Notes under the pieces: generated by a model | Told to the model about the DNA's origin: nothing | The model's database searches: none | Seen by the model: the letters and a program-made list of their open reading frames with translations, nothing else | Source of the DNA: a virus | DNA length: 25,156 bases | Strand: one strand, 5' to 3' | IMG/VR virus record: IMGVR_UViG_3300005435_000048 | Coordinates: 1-25,156 of that record | Translations under genes and position numbers: made by a program | Shown here: in pieces, positions 6,764-25,145 of the stretch | How the letters are laid out: every line of letters begins with the position of its first letter | Position numbering within the stretch: the first letter of the stretch is position 1

Positions 6764-6829
6764 TCACGAAGCGCGACTTCCACGTCGCGACGTATCGAGC
6801 AGCCGGTAGGTGCCACGTTTAGGTTTCAT
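6764..6829 (-). CDS. Possible 21-residue peptide overlapping the helicase stop
   Basis: ATG at 6829 overlaps the helicase TGA (ATGA). It encodes MKPKRGTYRLLDTSRRGSRAS and then stops. The coupling resembles real genes elsewhere in the window, but the peptide is short, basic and unrecognised. It could also be the truncated beginning of a gene lost in the gene-poor stretch that follows. Confidence 0.3.
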   Translation of the reverse strand: MKPKRGTYRLLDTSRRGSRAS

Positions 6830-8271
6830 CGACGCTTCCTACTGTACGCGCGCAGCGCATCCAGTAGCGCGCCTTGCGTGCGGGCTTTTCCGCGCAGTCC
6901 ACCCAACACGGCTTCGTCCGTCGTACCGCGCGCGACTAGGTGGTGTAGGAAGACGCGCTCTGTCTGGCCTTGCCTCCAGATACGCTGGATGAACTGGTCG
7001 TACAGCTCGTAGTTCCACAGTAACGAGTACCAGATGACTGCGCGCCCCGTCTTCTGCAGGTTAAGCCCGTGCGCTACGGACTGCGGCTGCGCGACGATGC
7101 ACGCTAGCTCGCCAGCGTCCCACGCCGCTACGATAGCCGCCGTGTCCTTCATGCTGACGCCCCCACCGACTCTAGGTACGTCACCGTAGCCGGCTTTCTT
7201 CAACGCGCGCTGGATGCGCGCCGCGTCGTGTAGGAACTCGTACGCGATCAACGTCGGGTGGCCCTGTAACTCCCCCATGAGCTCGACTAGTGCGACGCTC
7301 TTCGCGTCGTGGAACTCCTTGACGCGGCGTTTAGCTTCGTTCGGTTGCGCGTCGAGGTAGACGCCGCCGTTCGCCAGTTGGCGCAGCTTGCCCCCCAGGA
7401 CGGCCGCGTTCACCGCCGTAATCGCTTTGTTACGCCCAAACTCCAGTAGGAAGTCGCTCTCGAACTTGTCGTACGCTGCGCTCGCCTTCGGTGGTAGCTC
7501 GACGTAGGTGTTGGACGCGACCAACGCGGGGAGGTCCAGGTAATCGGCGCGGTCCATGCGTAGGATGTACGGCGCAATGGCAGCGTAGATCTTCTCTTCC
7601 GCGCCGGGGCGCGGTACATAGGTGTACCCGCCGAAGCCCGTCTGGTCGAAGTACTGCATCCGGTAGTGCGTGATGTACTTGCCTAGAGATTTCCCTAGGT
7701 CGAGGCAAAAGACCTGCGAGAATAAATCGTGCAATCCATTAGGGGCAGGCGTACCGGTCAGGATGTAGCGCCGCCGGAACTGGTGCAGCATCCGCCGGAT
7801 GATCTTGAATCGAAGAGTGCCGGAGTTCTTCACTAGCGTTGACTCGTCGATGCAGAGTATATCGAACGGCCACTTGTCGCGATTCTTGCCTAGCTTTTCT
7901 TCCAACCATGAGAGACCGTCCGGGTTAATCAGGTAGATGTCGGCCTTGCGCCGCAGCGCGGCGTCCTTGCGCGGTCCGTGCAGTACCTCCATCTTCAGGT
8001 GCTGGAAGTCGCGCCACTTCGTGCGTTCGGCCGGCCAGACTAGGTGAACCACGCGCAGCGGGGCTATGACCAGCATGCCCCTAGTCAGCTTCTGGGAACG
8101 GAGGACGTCGAACGCGGCGAGCGTGATGCTCGTTTTACCTAGGCCTACTCAGCCCGGATCGAGAAAGAGCCCCGCTGCCCCTCGGGACACGAGAAAGCGT
8201 ACAGCCTTCTGAGCGTATGCCTTGGGCTTCCACGGGAGTCCGCTCGAGCCGGGCGATCCTCCGTTATTTTG
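6826..8271 (-). CDS. SF2/SNF2-like helicase, interrupted in Walker A by a stop-containing 9-nt insertion
   Basis: The frame opens at a GTG (8271) overlapping the HNH stop, with GGAG 11 nt upstream. No ATG precedes the P-loop. It reads WKPKAYAQKAVRFLVSRGAA, then GLFLDPG, TGA, V, G, LGKTSITLAAF. The rest is intact: MLVIAPL (Ia), ILCIDESTLVKN (II), YILTGTPAPNG (III), QSVAHGLNLQ (V), QFIQRIWRQGQ (VI). The C-terminus KARTQGALLDALRAYSRKRR is typical. Removing TGA-GTA-GGC gives D-P-G-L-G-K-T and 478 residues. Starting at the ATG at 8076 would leave 416 residues with no ATP site. So either ribosomes bypass the insertion or the gene is dead. TGA at 6826-6828 is its normal stop, so the code is not reassigned. 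Confidence 0.88.
8143..8151 (-). other. 9-nt insertion TGAGTAGGC in the helicase P-loop, candidate translational bypass site
   Basis: On the minus strand the codons run GAT CCG GGC, then TGA GTA GGC, then CTA GGT AAA ACG. The glycine codon before the stop (take-off, 8154-8152) and the last codon of the insertion (landing, 8145-8143) are both GGC. A peptidyl-tRNA-Gly that leaves the first and re-pairs with the second would resume at CTA and make a canonical P-loop. T4 gene 60 uses the same logic: GGA take-off, stop codon next, GGA landing. No experimental evidence exists here. Confidence 0.6.
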
Positions 8272-8917
8272 CACGATTTAATAATCTCCAGCGTTTCCAA
8301 TACAGTCGGACTCGTTTACTGGCGCTTTGACGACGTTCCGGTGTCCAACACTTCTTCAAAGATTCGTGCAGTGCTTTTCGTGATTCTTCGCTCCTATTTT
8401 CATATGTATTTTTACAGGAAGAAGATATCCTACGACGAGCTTCTTCTGTATGGTGTCTGCCAAACATCGGGTGTTTGCTACCTGTACGACCATAAGCAGG
8501 GGACAATGGCCCGTCGCGGCCGTACATTGGGTTTCCGCTGCCGCTTTTCAGTTTACCCCAGGCTCTACGTTGTTCTGGAGTCCAGTAACGCTTGAAGACA
8601 CCTTTTCGTGAAGCATCCATCTGGTTATCACGATTAGTTCCTAGCCACAGGTGATCCGGATTTACACAACGTTTGACGTCACAAGAATGGCATACCATTA
8701 AGCCTTCAGAAATAGGTCCTAGGTACCATAAGTAAATTAAAACATGTACGCGCGAGCTAGTGCCGGGCATGCACCTATGTCTACGCAACCTAGGATAGCC
8801 GTTCGTCCATAATAGCCCCGTCCAAATCCAGCAGCCAGTTATCAGGTCTTCTACAATACAAGATTCTAATTGCTCGATGTAATCGTAGAAGCGTTCTTCG
8901 TCCGAACGATAGGTCAC
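8264..8917 (-). CDS. HNH homing endonuclease with NUMOD3-type repeats
   Basis: 217 aa from a GTG overlapping the VRR-NUC stop. The HNH core reads CWIWTGLLWTNGYPRL, RVHVLIYLWYLGPISEG and LMVCHSCDVKRCVNPDHLWL, followed by GTNRDNQMDASRKG. The middle has NUMOD3-like short repeats (GSGNPMYGRDGPLSPAYGRT; SKHPMFGRHHTEEARRRIS). The C-terminus is basic. It is inserted between the usually adjacent VRR-NUC and helicase genes and is markedly AT-richer than both. Its TAA overlaps the presumed helicase GTG start. About 110 nt downstream is the 9-nt stop-containing insertion in the helicase P-loop, so this enzyme is the candidate agent that brought it. Confidence 0.9.
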   Translation of the reverse strand: MTYRSDEERFYDYIEQLESCIVEDLITGCWIWTGLLWTNGYPRLRRHRCMPGTSSRVHVLIYLWYLGPISEGLMVCHSCDVKRCVNPDHLWLGTNRDNQMDASRKGVFKRYWTPEQRRAWGKLKSGSGNPMYGRDGPLSPAYGRTGSKHPMFGRHHTEEARRRISSSCKNTYENRSEESRKALHESLKKCWTPERRQSASKRVRLYWKRWRLLNRAK

Positions 8918-9243
8918 AGCTTCGCTTTCGCCTTCCCGAAGACGCGCTGTAGCTTCAGCAACTCACCTAGCCACGCGATCGCGGCATCGCTGTCGTCGGT
9001 CCACGTTGCGTATTGCTTACGGTCCACCAATTCTCGAAGGAACTTGTTCTGCAACGGCGTCAGCTCTTCCTTCGGTTTCTTAAATTCGACGAACGCTGCT
9101 ATGCCGTTCGGTAGCAGGAAGAGTTGGTCGGGCCACCCTTTGTGTCCTAGCCCGTCCATCTTGCGGTGCATGATCCCATTCGCGACGGCCCACCGCACGA
9201 CGCGGTCCTCGATCGCCGACTCCTTCTCTCGACGCTTACGCAC
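8914..9243 (-). CDS. VRR-NUC domain nuclease
   Basis: 109 aa from GTG, overlapping the J-domain gene end by 8 nt. Reads ESAIEDRVVRWAVANGIMHR, then KMDGLGHKGWPDQLFLLPNG, then IAAFVEFKKPKEELTPLQNK. It has the E...GWPD...ExK catalytic set of VRR-NUC (PD-(D/E)XK superfamily) enzymes. Stand-alone viral members are structure-specific nucleases and are commonly encoded directly before an SNF2-type helicase. Here the HNH gene separates the two. The TGA overlaps the HNH GTG (GTGA). Confidence 0.92.
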   Translation of the reverse strand: MRKRREKESAIEDRVVRWAVANGIMHRKMDGLGHKGWPDQLFLLPNGIAAFVEFKKPKEELTPLQNKFLRELVDRKQYATWTDDSDAAIAWLGELLKLQRVFGKAKAKL

Positions 9244-12641: not shown

Positions 12642-14554
12642 CACTCTCCTCTCGGTAACTTGGTCAACTCCGTCCACCGCGTCGCGCTCCACGCGCCCTC
12701 GGACAGCATCGGCACGTCGAACGCTACGTCGGCCATCGCGTCGCGGAGGCGCCGCATCTCCGGCACCCGCGCGCCCTTCGGACACTCCGCCAGCAGTTCG
12801 TCGTGCACGTTAAGGTCCAGTTCACCGTCCTTCGCGATCTCGGCGTAGTTGCACATGGCCTGCTTGGTATTGTCTGCTGCGCTGCCCTGGATGAGCGTAT
12901 TCAGCATCTTGTACTCGAACGTAATCGTCTTCTTCGCACCGTTAGGTAGCTCGATCTCGCGCGGCGCTTCGCAGTAGTACTCCCTCCCGCCCCACGTACG
13001 CAGCGGCTGGTTCCGCGCCGCGCGGTCGCGTAGCCCCTCCGACAAGTCCTTGATGCCGGGGATGCCTCGTTTGTGCGCGTTACGCAGCTGTGTGGCGGAC
13101 TCCACCGAGAGCGCCATGGCGCGCGCCAACTTACCGATGCCCATGCCGTAGATCAAGCCGAAGTTGAGTATCTTGATCGGCTTGCGCTTGACTTCCATGT
13201 TCAACATCTCGGAAATCAACTTCTGCACGAAGACGTGCATATCCAGCCACGGGTCTTTCTGGTAAGCTTCCAGTAGCAAGCCGTTCTCGTAGTGTGCTAA
13301 GATGCGCAGCTCTTGCGAGTGGTAGTCGCGATTGAGCAGCACGCGCCCCTTACGTGGCACGACGTAGCTGCGCACCATCGGCAGCGGCGCGCGCTGCAAT
13401 AGTTGCGACAACGCTGGCAACTTCTGCAAGCCCGCCAGCGCAGCCATCAGCTCGTCCTTCTCCTCCAGATTCGTGGTTATATTCTGCAGGTTCGGCACGC
13501 TGGAAAGCCGGCCGGTGCGCGTACCCTTCCGGGCGCCGCTGGAGTGATAGTCCTGTGCCACCTGATTCCACGACGTATGGATCAACCCACCGGTCCGCTG
13601 CGCGGTAGCCAGCCACGGCGTCAGGAAGCCCCGTAGCGCGCCGGCCACCGTGGCGCGGTACGTCAGCGCGGCGAGCAGGGGGGCGTCCGTTATAGCCGCC
13701 GCTAACGCGGTCTTTTTGGTGGACAACTGGCCCGTTGGGGTACGCTCCCACTTAGTCTCATCCATCAGTCCGGATCGCTGGAGCGCGATCACTAACTCAT
13801 CGTCGCTGTCAACGTTGAGCCCCTTCGTCTTCAGTCGCTTGCATAGCCACGCGTCCGCGTCGTTCAACGCAGCGTTGTAGCGGGGTACGTCGCGCTCCAG
13901 CCCGCGCAGGTCCACCGCTAGCCCGCGCCGCTCCGACGCTAGTAGGATGGGCATCAGACGCCGCTCGCGGTCGTAAGCTGCACCCATGCCCCGGTCCACC
14001 ACGACTTCTTGATAATACTTTTGAAAGAGCGCGTAAGTTCGGTCCACGTCGCCGATCGCGTAGCGTCCTACTAGGTCGCCGGGCGCCTCGCTGATGTGCG
14101 CCCCCCACTTCTTGTCGTTCTTCTTGACGATCCCCTGCGCGATGAGCCACGCGCGGACGGCGTCGCGCTCGTTCGGGGGCAGCCCCAGCACCTGCTCCGC
14201 CACCGGCTTCAAGGAGAGAGTCGAGCGGTCGGGGTTCTGAAGGAATATCAACAACAATGTATCGTGAGTACGGTCCCAAGGAGGCAGTGGAAGACCGAAA
14301 TAGCTTTCTGCTAAATCTCCATCAAATTTGAAATTGTGAGCAAGAATAGGCAACCCAGATGACCAAATACGTTTCAAATGCGAACGAGCATCATTGAATG
14401 AACAGTTATTTCCGGAAGGGTGTCCCCACGCTAAGTAGTACGACTTCACGCCGGGCACCCTAATGGCGACGCCGACTGGCTTCGGCGGATAGTCCGGTCT
14501 CGGAAGTATCCCTTCCGACTCGAAGTCCACGACAACACAACTAGGGGTTGACAA
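12641..14554 (-). CDS. DNA polymerase, family A (Pol I type) with 3'-5' exonuclease domain
   Basis: 637 aa. The start is taken as TTG at 14554, because GGAGG lies 7 nt before it; a TTG nine codons earlier is possible. The exonuclease domain shows VVDFESEG (Exo I), LAHNFKFDGDLAE (Exo II) and GRYAIGDVDRTY (Exo III). The polymerase domain shows RDYHSQELRILAHY (motif A), KRKPIKILNFGLIYGMG (motif B) and LNVHDELLAECP (motif C). All catalytic acids are present, so the enzyme should replicate and proofread. There is no sign of a 5'-3' nuclease domain, as in T7-type phage polymerases. The start lies inside the end of the HNH gene. Positions 14290-14420 are distinctly AT-richer than the rest of the gene. 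The stop overlaps the next start (TGATG). Confidence 0.95.
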   Translation of the reverse strand: MSTPSCVVVDFESEGILPRPDYPPKPVGVAIRVPGVKSYYLAWGHPSGNNCSFNDARSHLKRIWSSGLPILAHNFKFDGDLAESYFGLPLPPWDRTHDTLLLIFLQNPDRSTLSLKPVAEQVLGLPPNERDAVRAWLIAQGIVKKNDKKWGAHISEAPGDLVGRYAIGDVDRTYALFQKYYQEVVVDRGMGAAYDRERRLMPILLASERRGLAVDLRGLERDVPRYNAALNDADAWLCKRLKTKGLNVDSDDELVIALQRSGLMDETKWERTPTGQLSTKKTALAAAITDAPLLAALTYRATVAGALRGFLTPWLATAQRTGGLIHTSWNQVAQDYHSSGARKGTRTGRLSSVPNLQNITTNLEEKDELMAALAGLQKLPALSQLLQRAPLPMVRSYVVPRKGRVLLNRDYHSQELRILAHYENGLLLEAYQKDPWLDMHVFVQKLISEMLNMEVKRKPIKILNFGLIYGMGIGKLARAMALSVESATQLRNAHKRGIPGIKDLSEGLRDRAARNQPLRTWGGREYYCEAPREIELPNGAKKTITFEYKMLNTLIQGSAADNTKQAMCNYAEIAKDGELDLNVHDELLAECPKGARVPEMRRLRDAMADVAFDVPMLSEGAWSATRWTELTKLPRGE

Positions 14555-15173
14555 GTCGCCGCCTCCGATTAGGATTGTCAACGGACTTTAACCAAGCTAT
14601 TCGGTTCTTACGCCATACGGGGTTCTGCCATAAGGCTCGAAAACGTTGAGCCGACTCTCCACGTCGCCGAGCTGCGCTAGCTTTTTGCGCAGTAACCATC
14701 TTTGCACGGTAGGCTGGGTCTTTCCACAACTTTTTAAGATTTTCACTTACACCCTTACTTACGTTCTTACGAAACTGTGGATCTATAGCCCACTTCGTTT
14801 TTAACGCCTTGTTTATCGCCTTACGGCGTTTCTTGGCTAATTCAAGGTCCGCCCAAAGTTTCTCAGCTTCCTTTCCAAATCGCCGTCTTTGCTCAGGGTC
14901 TGAAGACACATGCCGACCCTTACGAGCGGCGTCCCTCATATTATCGGTGTGGCTGCCCGTGAATAAATGTCTAAAATTTATACACGACGGGTTGTCACAC
15001 CGATGCAGCACGTGTACATTCGGTGGCAAGGGTCCGTACTTTAGTTGGTATACATGGCGAGAAATCCTACCACGTGACGGGTGCTCCAAGCACGCACCCA
15101 CGCGCGTAGCTTCCTTTCGATACTGTGTTAGAGTCTTTAATGGAGGGGCCACATCGACTCCATCGCTACGCAA
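14541..15173 (-). CDS. HNH homing endonuclease with helical DNA-binding repeats
   Basis: 210 aa from TTG at 15173; an in-frame GTG at 15152 is an alternative. The HNH/Zn core is RISRHVYQLKYGPLPPNVHV, continuing LHRCDNPSCINFRHLFTG and NMRDAARKGR. The C-terminal 110 residues hold repeated basic helices (LKKLWKDPAYRAKM; RALWQNPVWRKN), like NUMOD-type minor-groove readers. The family makes free-standing homing endonucleases that cut a phage gene lacking the insertion. It sits immediately upstream of the DNA polymerase gene and overlaps its start by 14 nt. It is more AT-rich than the polymerase, consistent with transfer. Confidence 0.85.
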   Translation of the reverse strand: MRSDGVDVAPPLKTLTQYRKEATRVGACLEHPSRGRISRHVYQLKYGPLPPNVHVLHRCDNPSCINFRHLFTGSHTDNMRDAARKGRHVSSDPEQRRRFGKEAEKLWADLELAKKRRKAINKALKTKWAIDPQFRKNVSKGVSENLKKLWKDPAYRAKMVTAQKASAARRRGESAQRFRALWQNPVWRKNRIAWLKSVDNPNRRRRLVNP

Positions 15174-17807: not shown

Positions 17808-17890
17808 CACGCCTCCTCCGGTGGCAGCAGCAATCTACCTAGCAAAACTACCGCGAGGATGACCAACAACACATATAAGGAGTCCATCAT
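17807..17890 (-). CDS. 27-residue single-span membrane peptide
   Basis: Begins MMDS, followed by LYVLLVILAVVLLGRLLL, an 18-residue hydrophobic segment with one Arg, and ends PPEEA. The ATG overlaps the Ro60 stop (ATGATGG), with GGAAG 9 nt upstream. Its TGA overlaps the following start, which is preceded by GGAGGA inside this gene. Such coupling on both sides argues for translation. The role is unknown: a small inner-membrane peptide, perhaps tethering or host-modifying. Confidence 0.6.
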   Translation of the reverse strand: MMDSLYVLLVILAVVLLGRLLLPPEEA

Positions 17891-19314
17891 GGCGCTACTT
17901 CCTCCGCTTCCAATTCACGAATGTAGTCGAACACCGCTTCGCTCCAGCCGTCGATGCGGTTCCACGCGCCGAAGCCGACGCCGTTCTTGTACGTCGCTAC
18001 GTTTATCATGTAAGCGATCTTACCAGCGTCCGGCGCTCCTACTGCGTCTTGCGATTCTTCGTCCGTCATGACGATTAGCCGCTGGTACCGTCCCGACACC
18101 CCCAGCACCGCGCTTCCGATCCGCGTACCGTTCGAGGGCACCGCACGTTGGATTGCGTCCGCCAGGGCGAAGCCCCGTCGCGCGGGTACGAGAGCGTGTT
18201 CATTCGAAAATGCGTAGATGTCGATCTCTTCGCACACCTCTCGTGCTAGAATGGCGAGACCCAGCGCGGCGTCCTCTCGCGTTAGCTCCGACTTCGCCGA
18301 AACTTGCGACTGCCGCATGGAAGGCGACGTATCGATCAGCAGCACGGTCTTACCGGGCAATCTATCGCGCCCTTCCAGGCAGCGCAGCATCGCCGGCTCG
18401 ATCAGGTCTTCCCAGCCGGGGCAAGCTCGCGCCGCTGCGATAAACCGGAACGGTAACACGCGATCGACCTTGACGTTATCCAGCGCGCCAGCCACCGCCT
18501 TGCGATCGACGCCCGCGTCGCGCATGTTGCGCAGGTTACGGAGCAGCGCCAACGCGCCCAGCTTATTGTCGGCTAGCAACCGCTCGAACGTCTCGCGTTT
18601 GTCCGCGCCGCCAGAGAGCGCGACCTCCCACGTATCGGGGGTCGTCAACTCACCCGCGATGAGCCGGCGGTACAGGTCTTCGCGCGGCGACAGCACGCGA
18701 CGCATGTTCAGCGCGCGCTCCGCTTTCGTGTAGACCGTGGTGGCTTTCTCGCCAACACCGATCGTCGGGCGCCCCTTCAGCGCAGCGGCAGTGCGGTCGC
18801 CCGGCTTAGCGTGGCTCAAGAACAGCGCGTCACGCAGCCGCACCTTACCCTCTCGGTCGTACTTCGCTAGCGAGTACTCGTTGAACTTCTCGAACGCACG
18901 CGCGAGCCCCTTCTTGACTTGCGCCGATAGTGGTTGCTTGCCGTCCTTCCAGTAGATGGCTAGGAATTCCGTAATCTCATCTGGACGCTCGATGATCGCT
19001 TCTAGCGTGTGCGCGACGAGCGTCTTGTGCTCCGGCAACCGCGCCATCTCGCGCGCCAGCAGGAGCGGCACGTGGCGGAGCTTCATCTCGTGGCGTGCCT
19101 TGATTGCGAGCGCCATGACGTCCACTGGCACGCACTTAGCGACCAACGACTTAATGCGATCGGCGGTCGAGACACCGCTCTCGTAGAATGAATCCTCCCA
19201 GAGCAGACACGCCAGAACGGCGCGACGCAGTTCGCGCAGAGGGGTCGAATGCACGGCACGCGTGCCTTCGTGATTATAGGCCGGGGGTGCTTTTACCGGA
19301 GTATTGAGTTTCAT
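17887..19314 (-). CDS. rsr: TROVE-domain Ro60 orthologue (Rsr-like), Y RNA-binding protein
   Basis: 475 aa. The N-terminal about 310 residues form the alpha-helical TROVE repeat ring, with blocks such as RELRRAVLACLLWEDSFYESG near residue 28 (quoted to 21 letters at most in parts: LACLLWEDSFYESG), VRLRDALFLSHAKP near 155 and ALLRNLRNMRDAGVD near 262. The C-terminal part is a von Willebrand A domain with an intact MIDAS: VLLIDTSPSM, then SNGTRIG, then IVMTDEESQD. Ro60 rings bind misfolded RNA ends and Y RNAs; in Deinococcus, Rsr works with PNPase. A Shine-Dalgarno-like AAAGGAAA lies before the ATG. The stop overlaps a 27-codon membrane-peptide gene. The Y RNA just upstream on the same strand makes this a Ro60/YrlA locus, and the two are probably cotranscribed. 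Confidence 0.92.
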   Translation of the reverse strand: MKLNTPVKAPPAYNHEGTRAVHSTPLRELRRAVLACLLWEDSFYESGVSTADRIKSLVAKCVPVDVMALAIKARHEMKLRHVPLLLAREMARLPEHKTLVAHTLEAIIERPDEITEFLAIYWKDGKQPLSAQVKKGLARAFEKFNEYSLAKYDREGKVRLRDALFLSHAKPGDRTAAALKGRPTIGVGEKATTVYTKAERALNMRRVLSPREDLYRRLIAGELTTPDTWEVALSGGADKRETFERLLADNKLGALALLRNLRNMRDAGVDRKAVAGALDNVKVDRVLPFRFIAAARACPGWEDLIEPAMLRCLEGRDRLPGKTVLLIDTSPSMRQSQVSAKSELTREDAALGLAILAREVCEEIDIYAFSNEHALVPARRGFALADAIQRAVPSNGTRIGSAVLGVSGRYQRLIVMTDEESQDAVGAPDAGKIAYMINVATYKNGVGFGAWNRIDGWSEAVFDYIRELEAEEVAP

Positions 19315-23504: not shown

Positions 23505-23703
23505 ATCTTCCCTTTGGCGTTGGTGGTTCGATCTTCCGTATCTTCACCATCGCTTGATAGACGGTAACGAAGCCGTCATCGTCGATCGTTACGGAGGGGC
23601 TACCCAGCGGTACCCATCCACCCTTTAGCATCTCATTAACTACCACTTCCACGCGAGCTTCCTCTTCGGTGACGAGCTTGTACTCTTCCACGTATTGAAT
23701 CAC
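23497..23703 (-). CDS. DUF1737-like small protein
   Basis: 68 aa from a GTG whose last bases overlap the TGA of the HNH gene (GTGA); a TTG one codon earlier is possible. A purine-rich AAGGGGG lies just upstream. The pattern YKLVTEEE....VVNEMLKGGWVPLGSPSV, then VYQAMVK, matches the DUF1737 layout (a short domain ending in YQAMVK). No biochemical role is established for this family. The next gene starts inside its last codons, suggesting translational coupling. Confidence 0.7.
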   Translation of the reverse strand: MIQYVEEYKLVTEEEARVEVVVNEMLKGGWVPLGSPSVTIDDDGFVTVYQAMVKIRKIEPPTPKGRYD

Positions 23704-24262
23704 CAATCCCCCTTGACATTTTCACGTTTTGCCCGTTGTACTTCCTGACTCCGCTTACCAGCCCTGACATGGACTTCGTGGGGAATGGAAAGTAACGCTC
23801 GTAAGGTATTCGGGTGCATTGGTCTTCCAACTGCTTTCGCTCTCACGCGTTCTCTACTTTCTTCGGTCCACGTTGATTGCCCAAAGTTGCCTTCTCTATG
23901 TTGCTTCTTTGCTCGTTCGCTTATCATCTTGGTGTATTCGGGTCGAGCATTTCGCTCTTTCGCAGATTTACTCATCTTTACCTTAACAGCCAATGAAAAC
24001 TTTCTTCCCGTGCCGTGCAGTGTAGCGTGCTGCGCTCTAGTTAGTAATTCTAAATTTCGCGAAATCGATTATCAGTCTTATTTTCATTCCTATGGTGTAG
24101 CACGTGCCCGCGCGGCACCCTCTTACCAGTGTGCTTCCAGTAAATCCAGTGGTGTTTCTTCACCCATGGCTCGCCGGGAAACACAGGGTGGTCCAGGCGC
24201 ACCCAAACGTATCCGTAGTAATTGCAAATACGAGTGCTACCAAGTTTCGCCGCGATTCTCAT
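23700..24262 (-). pseudogene. HNH homing endonuclease, broken by a single-base deletion
   Basis: Two reading frames together make one HNH endonuclease. The upstream frame (24262-24050) has YYGYVWVRLDHP, then WVKKHHWIYWKHTGKRVP and the HNH core HVLHHRNENKTDNRFRE, and stops at TAG. The next frame continues without a gap as NLELLTRAQHATLHGTGRK, which is exactly the expected continuation, and then a basic C-terminal DNA-binding part (23993-23700). Restoring one A in the short A run at about 24055-24057 (minus strand GAAATTTAG to GAAAATTTAG) rejoins the frames into about 187 codons. It may be a decayed free-standing homing endonuclease, a sequencing indel, or a frameshifted gene. It lies between the thymine-modification gene and the DUF1737 gene, and its 3' end overlaps the next start as GTGA. 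Base composition is more AT-rich than the neighbours, as for the other HNH genes here. Confidence 0.8.
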
Positions 24263-25145
24263 ATGGTGTATACCTAGATCTTAGATGCCCTTCTCCACTA
24301 ACTGCTTTCACCCACTTCGAATACTCACAAAGTGAGTGTTCTATTTCTCGCAGTTCCAACGCGGGCCACTCCCTCGGCCACTTCGTCTGGATGTTGCCCA
24401 ACAACCACACCATCGCGTCCACCGCTTCCTTATCGCTTAGGAACGGTCGTTCCTTGGCCCCCTTTCCTAGTAGCCGGTTGAGTCCGCGCTTCGCCCCGGG
24501 TCCGGCGTGCGCCCACGTGAGCTTGTCCGGCGCGTCGCGTAAGTAACGAGTGTAGCGCAGGTCACACGCCACCTCGTAGGCCATGAATCCCCCGAAGCCT
24601 ACGTGCTTCCCGTTCAGAGCCCCCACCGCTCCCTGCAACGATGAGTGTATCGTCGGCTCCAGCGCGGCGCGCGCCTTCCACACGCCGTTAAGCACCAGCT
24701 TGCACGTCAGCTCCGGCTTGTCGAACTTCCCCGGCACCTTGTTGAGCAGCCCACCCCCATTCGCCGTCAACATGTAAGCCCCGGTGTAGACCTTCTCGCC
24801 ACGCTTCGCGATGGAGCGCATCACCCTCATCGCGCGGCGCCAATCCCACTCCGTCTCCGTGGGCCACCCGCCTCCCTCCATCAGCGCGCGCAGCGTCGGG
24901 GGCCAGTTAATCTGCCGCGCGATGCAGAGCATGAACCACAGGTGCGGGTGCTCCGCGAAGGGCTCGCGTATGTTCTCCCTTATCCAGATCGTGACACGAT
25001 CCAGTTCTCTAAAGCAATTCGTGAACTTGTACGTATCCAGAATCGGGTCGTCCGTCCACGGCGCGGGTGCTCCAGCCTGCCGCCGTAGGTAGATGCGGTG
25101 CCGTTCCAACATGAACTTCAATAGTGGCTTGTACGCCAGTTTCAT
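24237..25145 (-). CDS. Thymine hypermodification enzyme, alpha-glutamyl/putrescinyl thymine pyrophosphorylase (clade 3-like)
   Basis: 302 aa. The protein reads like the phage family that displaces pyrophosphate from 5-(pyrophosphoryloxymethyl)uracil in DNA and attaches an amino acid or polyamine. Visible family landmarks are FTNCFRELDRVT near residue 40, a REP..P.LWF segment followed by IARQINWP near residue 75, GEKVYTGAYM near residue 117, and GFGGFMAYEVACDLRYTRYL followed by TWAHAGPGAKRGLNRLLG in the second half. The family and its role are known from comparative genomics of hypermodified phages; the exact adduct cannot be read here. It is the first complete gene in the window and overlaps the following HNH gene by 26 nt. 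A thymidylate-synthase-family gene and an HD nucleotidase lie about 1.3-3 kb downstream and fit the same pathway. The kinase expected for the pathway is not in the window. The start lies close to the window edge and no clear Shine-Dalgarno is visible. Confidence 0.75.
   Translation of the reverse strand: MKLAYKPLLKFMLERHRIYLRRQAGAPAPWTDDPILDTYKFTNCFRELDRVTIWIRENIREPFAEHPHLWFMLCIARQINWPPTLRALMEGGGWPTETEWDWRRAMRVMRSIAKRGEKVYTGAYMLTANGGGLLNKVPGKFDKPELTCKLVLNGVWKARAALEPTIHSSLQGAVGALNGKHVGFGGFMAYEVACDLRYTRYLRDAPDKLTWAHAGPGAKRGLNRLLGKGAKERPFLSDKEAVDAMVWLLGNIQTKWPREWPALELREIEHSLCEYSKWVKAVSGEGHLRSRYTPYENRGETW

Follow-up and report, generated by a model that had tools for sequence, protein, structure and literature searches.

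We analyzed a viral DNA stretch of 25,156 nucleotides (nt), the IMG/VR record IMGVR_UViG_3300005435_000048 (here called the window), in which the gene for a SNF2-family helicase is split within motif I, the Walker A motif or P-loop, by a stop-containing insert of 9 nt. From the layout of this site and its recurrence in other genomes, we consider it probable that compact programmed ribosomal bypassing produces the full-length helicase, and that the insert is one of a large class that has arisen repeatedly in the same P-loop.

Direct reading and translation confirmed the split reported in a first-pass annotation of the window. All helicase coordinates are on the minus strand. The codons GAT (8160-8158) and CCG (8157-8155) lead to the putative take-off codon GGC (8152..8154), which encodes the first P-loop glycine. 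Directly 3' of it stand the stop codon TGA (8149..8151), the spacer codon GTA (8148-8146) and the putative landing codon GGC (8145-8143; spacer and landing codon 8143..8148), and these three codons make up the extra 9 nt. The gene continues with CTA (8142-8140), the predicted resumption codon, and then GGT AAA ACG, giving LGKT. The frame is open for 41 codons before the insert and 438 after it: the first open reading frame (ORF1, 8149..8274) runs from GTG at 8274 through the take-off glycine to TGA, and ORF2 (6826..8142), starting with CTA GGT AAA ACG, contains 438 codons (8142-6829) and a stop. The codons on either side are identical, so GGCTGAGTA is an equally valid way of writing the insert. 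The search for a template for the 9 nt inside the window gave only a weak one-mismatch match, GCTGACTAGG, at 8089. The other helicase motifs were intact, as annotated: in the read-through protein Pfam detected SNF2-rel_dom (1.3e-16) and Helicase_C (3.8e-5), and the remaining SNF2 motifs were present. These N- and C-terminal helicase domains, together with motif I as aligned once the gap is removed, place the protein among the SNF2-like superfamily 2 (SF2) helicases. Uninterrupted relatives, expected in the annotation to lack the 9 nt, read LDPGLGKT in the alignment without extra residues.

In the proposed mechanism the ribosome would translate the 41-codon ORF1 and come to a halt once TGA occupies the A site, while peptidyl-tRNA-Gly is paired with GGC. 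The tRNA-Gly would then release, the mRNA would slide by 9 nt and the tRNA would re-pair on the second GGC, so that decoding would resume at CTA and produce LDPG-LGKT with an intact Walker A. GGT and GGC codons (GGY) are read by tRNA-Gly-GCC. The features of a gene-60-type element found in the window were the matched GGC/GGC codons, the stop directly 3' of take-off and an HNH gene directly upstream.

The annotated miniature version of the T4 gene 60 element, with matched codons, gained comparative support, as stop-containing inserts with glycine codons on both sides recurred in the same P-loop. Two loci among the first relatives, L003 and L014, likewise had an HNH gene lying between a VRR-NUC gene and that of the helicase. 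In both, the P-loop glycine codon was followed at once by a stop, and the inserts measured 10 and 4 nt, respectively. Surveys of helicase proteins used a classifier for any disturbed P-loop, in which stops were not sought. This gave 31 interrupted loci besides the window, and in all of them the extra bases began with a stop directly after a P-loop codon. Unlike this survey, the pattern scans required TRR (stop-like) or TGA and partly also glycine codons. Scanning one genome per prokaryote species gave 39 matches, all in this helicase and mostly in Bacillota genomes and metagenome-assembled genomes (MAGs). The element was carried by complete genomes (L261, L284; the matches include those of Geosporobacter ferrireducens IRF9 and Anaerocolumna sp. 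MB42-C2), and two matches bore the titles of a Cloacimonadota and a Micrarchaeota MAG. The latter, a contig labelled Candidatus Micrarchaeota (L259), contained a Bacillota-type prophage helicase with the element and probably represents a binning error. A scan for GGY-TGA-NNN-GGY followed by the remaining P-loop codons found three more true helicases with the exact window layout (L308, L314 and L317); the layout also occurred in L298, and a Ruminococcus phage had GGT TGA AAA GGC. When landing codon and gap length were left free, 24 true helicases were found, all landing on GGN with gaps of 5-9 nt; TAG, TAA and TGA were all used, and TGG took the place of the stop in none of the 24. Four pattern matches (L335, L349, L357 and L359) were discarded, since each proved to be an uninterrupted gene read in a different frame.

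Among cultured phages, the element was present in Fusobacterium phage phiPaco, Paenibacillus phage Pd_22F and Erysipelothrix phage phi1605. The phiPaco annotation has a 31-aa hypothetical protein and a helicase, that of Pd_22F an HNH gene and a short helicase, and in phi1605 the annotated helicase begins after the P-loop.

In total 92 elements, 88 of them distinct, had stop-containing inserts of 4-10 nt in the same P-loop, and in every one removal of exactly the extra bases restored GxGKT. The stop stood directly 3' of the take-off codon in all 88. Take-off was on GGY in 86/88 and on CTN in the other two, 6-nt elements with perfectly matched codons (CTT-TAG-CTT in L202 and CTG-TGA-CTG in L212). 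The first two bases of the landing codon were those of the take-off codon in 76 of the 88. On the tree, starred branches forced at least 19 changes between the interrupted and intact states; gain or loss therefore occurred many times. As a separate observation, the second P-loop glycine was replaced in the helicases of L027, L045, L060 (~2540) and L087 (~2498), which read GLRKT, GGRKT, GMRKT and GLEKT, and no adjacent HNH gene was found beside these four.

The interrupted genes were under strong purifying selection. In one family, 17 distinct interrupted genes had a mean ratio of nonsynonymous to synonymous substitution rates (dN/dS) of 0.07, and a 14-member clade with gaps of 5, 6, 7 and 8 nt had a median dN of 0.12 at a dS of 2.0. 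The 5' pieces, which are about 30-60 codons long and were coupled to the helicase in nearly all other interrupted loci, were also constrained, with ratios of nonsynonymous to synonymous polymorphism (pN/pS) of 0.18 and 0.31. No premature stop or frameshift was found in at least 370 codons after the P-loop in any of 211 distinct surveyed helicases, and GKT (or SKT or DKT) was retained right after the gap in all interrupted survey loci. The low dN/dS, the constrained 5' pieces and the lack of downstream breakage indicate that the two pieces are retained as protein, and with them the Walker A lysine that follows the gap. With a stop-containing insert at the same place in 87 further distinct loci and 0/211 broken downstream, the site was confirmed to be more than chance. 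At the site itself the first glycine was GGC in 56/56 members of the 5-nt family as compared to 8/45 intact relatives, a synonymous fixation confined to the site. Phase variation through the TTAGG repeat of the 5-nt family was considered and rejected: elements of the TGA types contain no repeat, and genes separated by much synonymous divergence are still interrupted.

These data bear on the least improbable of the alternatives, loss of function, which the annotation had also listed in the form of a dead gene. Here the insert would be a scar or a protection against homing in a dead helicase gene, or a truncated protein starting after motif I would be used. The adjacent HNH gene would fit this, as would the public annotations of phi1605 and Pd_22F, which start the helicase after the P-loop. 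However, a dN/dS of about 0.07 with large synonymous change while interrupted, the GKT kept just after the gap, the conserved 5' pieces and the absence of breakage elsewhere all stand against it, and inactivation does not require a stop directly after GGY. We therefore regard loss of function as improbable.

Readthrough of the stop is slightly less probable again. A near-cognate tRNA would decode TGA to give DPG-x-V-G-LGKT, and in the window the insert is in frame and GLGKT remains after it; the frame is likewise kept by the 6-nt inserts and by four further ones of 9 nt. Gaps of 4, 5, 7, 8 and 10 nt, however, are out of frame, and one clade mixes gaps of 5, 6, 7 and 8 nt. Readthrough also leaves the glycine match across the gap unexplained, and no suppressor tRNA was found in the window. 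We give a little less credit still to frameshifts that would differ from gene to gene in joining the reading frames, such as a +1 shift at GGT TAG C or a -1 shift at TTA GGT TAG. Some single cases could be joined in this way, such as L014 and the 5-nt family. However, the genes share no single frame, a -1 slip would move the tRNA from GGT onto the non-cognate AGG or CGG, and a +1 shift does not help the 6- and 9-nt genes; in the window the +1 frame meets TAG at once. Because the gap lengths of the class span all three frames, neither readthrough nor one fixed frameshift serves it.

An assembly or sequencing error, judged less likely in the annotation too, is very improbable: the window consists of one IMG/VR contig with no accompanying reads and another of its HNH genes seems one base short in an A run, but contigs unrelated to it, complete genomes of bacteria and phages in culture show the same layout. 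For the class as a whole, the presence of such elements in isolate genomes and cultured phages effectively rules out both assembly error and a scar in a dead gene.

The link between the element and an HNH gene, also proposed in the annotation, was supported. In the window, a gene for an HNH homing endonuclease (HNH_3 and NUMOD3 in Pfam; 8264..8917, minus strand) sits between the helicase and a VRR-NUC nuclease gene (8914..9243, minus strand; Pfam VRR_NUC 9.5e-5, just below the cut-off), the usual upstream neighbour of this helicase, and the VRR-NUC/helicase gene order was the same in relatives. The HNH gene ends 110 nt upstream of the interruption, and its stop overlaps the GTG start of ORF1. 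Counting an HNH gene that ended less than 200 nt upstream as adjacent, 8/24 interrupted and 4/172 intact distinct survey loci had one (Fisher p 5.7e-6; counts uncorrected for shared ancestry). Among the distinct interrupted loci with enough upstream DNA, an HNH gene lay directly upstream in 20/78, that is, in the window and 19/77 others. The intact loci next to an HNH gene (L067, L104, L149, L151, L152, L154 and L208) all had cysteine as the residue preceding the glycine (LDCG or LNCG), which may be a different means of avoiding cleavage.

In L062 a related HNH gene occupied the same position as in the window and had a copy of the helicase 5' end on each side (1757-2530). The upstream copy ends at EKP, where the HNH gene begins, and the second copy follows the HNH gene into the interrupted P-loop; the copies thus lie on both sides of the HNH gene, about 27 nt from the take-off codon. 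This is as expected of a cassette that would have inserted next to its target, and is comparable to the gene 39-mobA-60 arrangement in T4. No such remnant was found in the window. Probably HNH homing endonucleases that target this conserved DNA either accompanied the inserts as they spread or were what the inserts protected against, and the inserts could persist after the HNH gene is lost. Because interrupted helicases without an HNH gene occur (e.g. L115-L127), the data suggest that the element may outlive the endonuclease.

Two further HNH genes were noted in the window. A second HNH_3 gene (14541-15173, minus strand) lies directly upstream of, and overlaps, a DNA polymerase A gene that looks uninterrupted (646 aa). 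An HNH-like gene (23703-24262, minus strand) is apparently frameshifted: one frame ends in DNRFRE-stop and a different one continues as NLELLTRAQHATLHGTGR, as would result if an A run (GAAATTTA) had lost a single base.

T4 gene 60/mobA shares with the window a stop directly 3' of a glycine take-off codon with a matched glycine landing codon, a short ORF1 (46 codons in T4 and 41 in the window) and an HNH homing endonuclease gene directly upstream of a DNA-metabolism ATPase gene (PMC3014915, PMC5009743, PMC11194080). It differs in its gap (50 nt as compared to 4-10 nt) and its codons (GGA as compared to GGY), whereas the present elements share no detected stem-loop or nascent-peptide signal and comprise many independent cases in another gene, within the P-loop. 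Synthetic stop-hops in E. coli likewise have matched codons flanking a stop at short distance (PMC5009743), and L202 and L212 have exactly this layout, but the synthetic ones are artificial constructs. In Magnusiomyces mitochondria the byp elements are also numerous short inserts bypassed by ribosomes, some with imperfectly matched landing codons (PMC5009743). They differ in being mitochondrial, in occurring in many genes and in using an unused codon rather than a stop, and a homing endonuclease beside each insert is not described in PMC5009743. The terminase of Streptomyces phage Hau3 is a phage gene with a likely short bypass (PMC5009743), but there the codon is UUA rather than a stop, the gene is different and no HNH link is given in PMC5009743.

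Several points weigh against bypassing. In T4, gene 60 bypassing relies on stem-loops and on the nascent peptide (PMC5009743, PMC11194080), and neither was found here: across 16 elements, stem-loops did not recur consistently either at the take-off site or 3' of it, there was no consistent excess folding energy, and the ORF1 peptide matches that encoded by intact relatives, with no dedicated (KKYK-like) signal seen. In the window, a Shine-Dalgarno-like GAG precedes the landing GGC by 2 nt, not by 6 nt as in T4, and most gaps are too short for the T4 spacing. The landing codon was AGC, AGT or GAC in 12/88 elements, and AGA in phiPaco, so that pairing would be two of three; an early impression that the TGA/TAA 5-nt elements land only on AGY was dropped on account of phiPaco. 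The 5-nt family had no excess of synonymous constraint 3' of the site, and readthrough of TGA is formally possible in the in-frame 6- and 9-nt cases. No close relatives of the window were found, either by helicase (best homologs about 46% identical) or by DNA polymerase; with no close relative carrying the same insert, post-insertion selection in its lineage is not measurable. Lastly, we infer the hop, its efficiency, the HNH cleavage and the immunity from sequence comparison. Bypassing without stem-loops and a nascent-peptide signal may be possible owing to the short distance.

Elsewhere in the window, a gene at 17887-19314 (minus strand) encodes a 475-aa protein that was recognised by eye as resembling the Ro60/TROVE type, with a VWA-like LLIDTSPSM segment. 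The gene at 24237-25145 (minus strand) contains a 5-hydroxymethyldeoxyuridine (5-hmdU) DNA kinase helical domain (Pfam 2.9e-49), which suggests that the phage DNA may carry hypermodified thymidine. No plasmid match to the window was found.

Programmed bypassing in phages was previously known mainly from T4 gene 60, with its 50-nt gap and several helper signals, and a 2016 review knew of no natural in-frame stop hopping (PMC5009743). No published report of elements like these was found in the open-access literature; subscription papers and preprints lay outside the search. We find it fairly likely that minimal programmed stop-hop elements are widespread and repeatedly evolved in the helicase P-loops of phages and prophages, where they would be co-selected with homing endonucleases and form a second natural bypass system in bacteria, one that includes in-frame stop hopping and works without the stem-loops of T4. 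If so, they would be a first set of natural stop hops, and many phage helicases, those of phi1605 and phiPaco among them, would be mis-annotated as a small hypothetical protein and a helicase without Walker A. With dozens of cases that arose independently and span 4-10 nt, the elements would then offer a natural mutational series on what ribosomes need for release and re-pairing, and a direct test of whether homing endonucleases drive the origin of bypassing.
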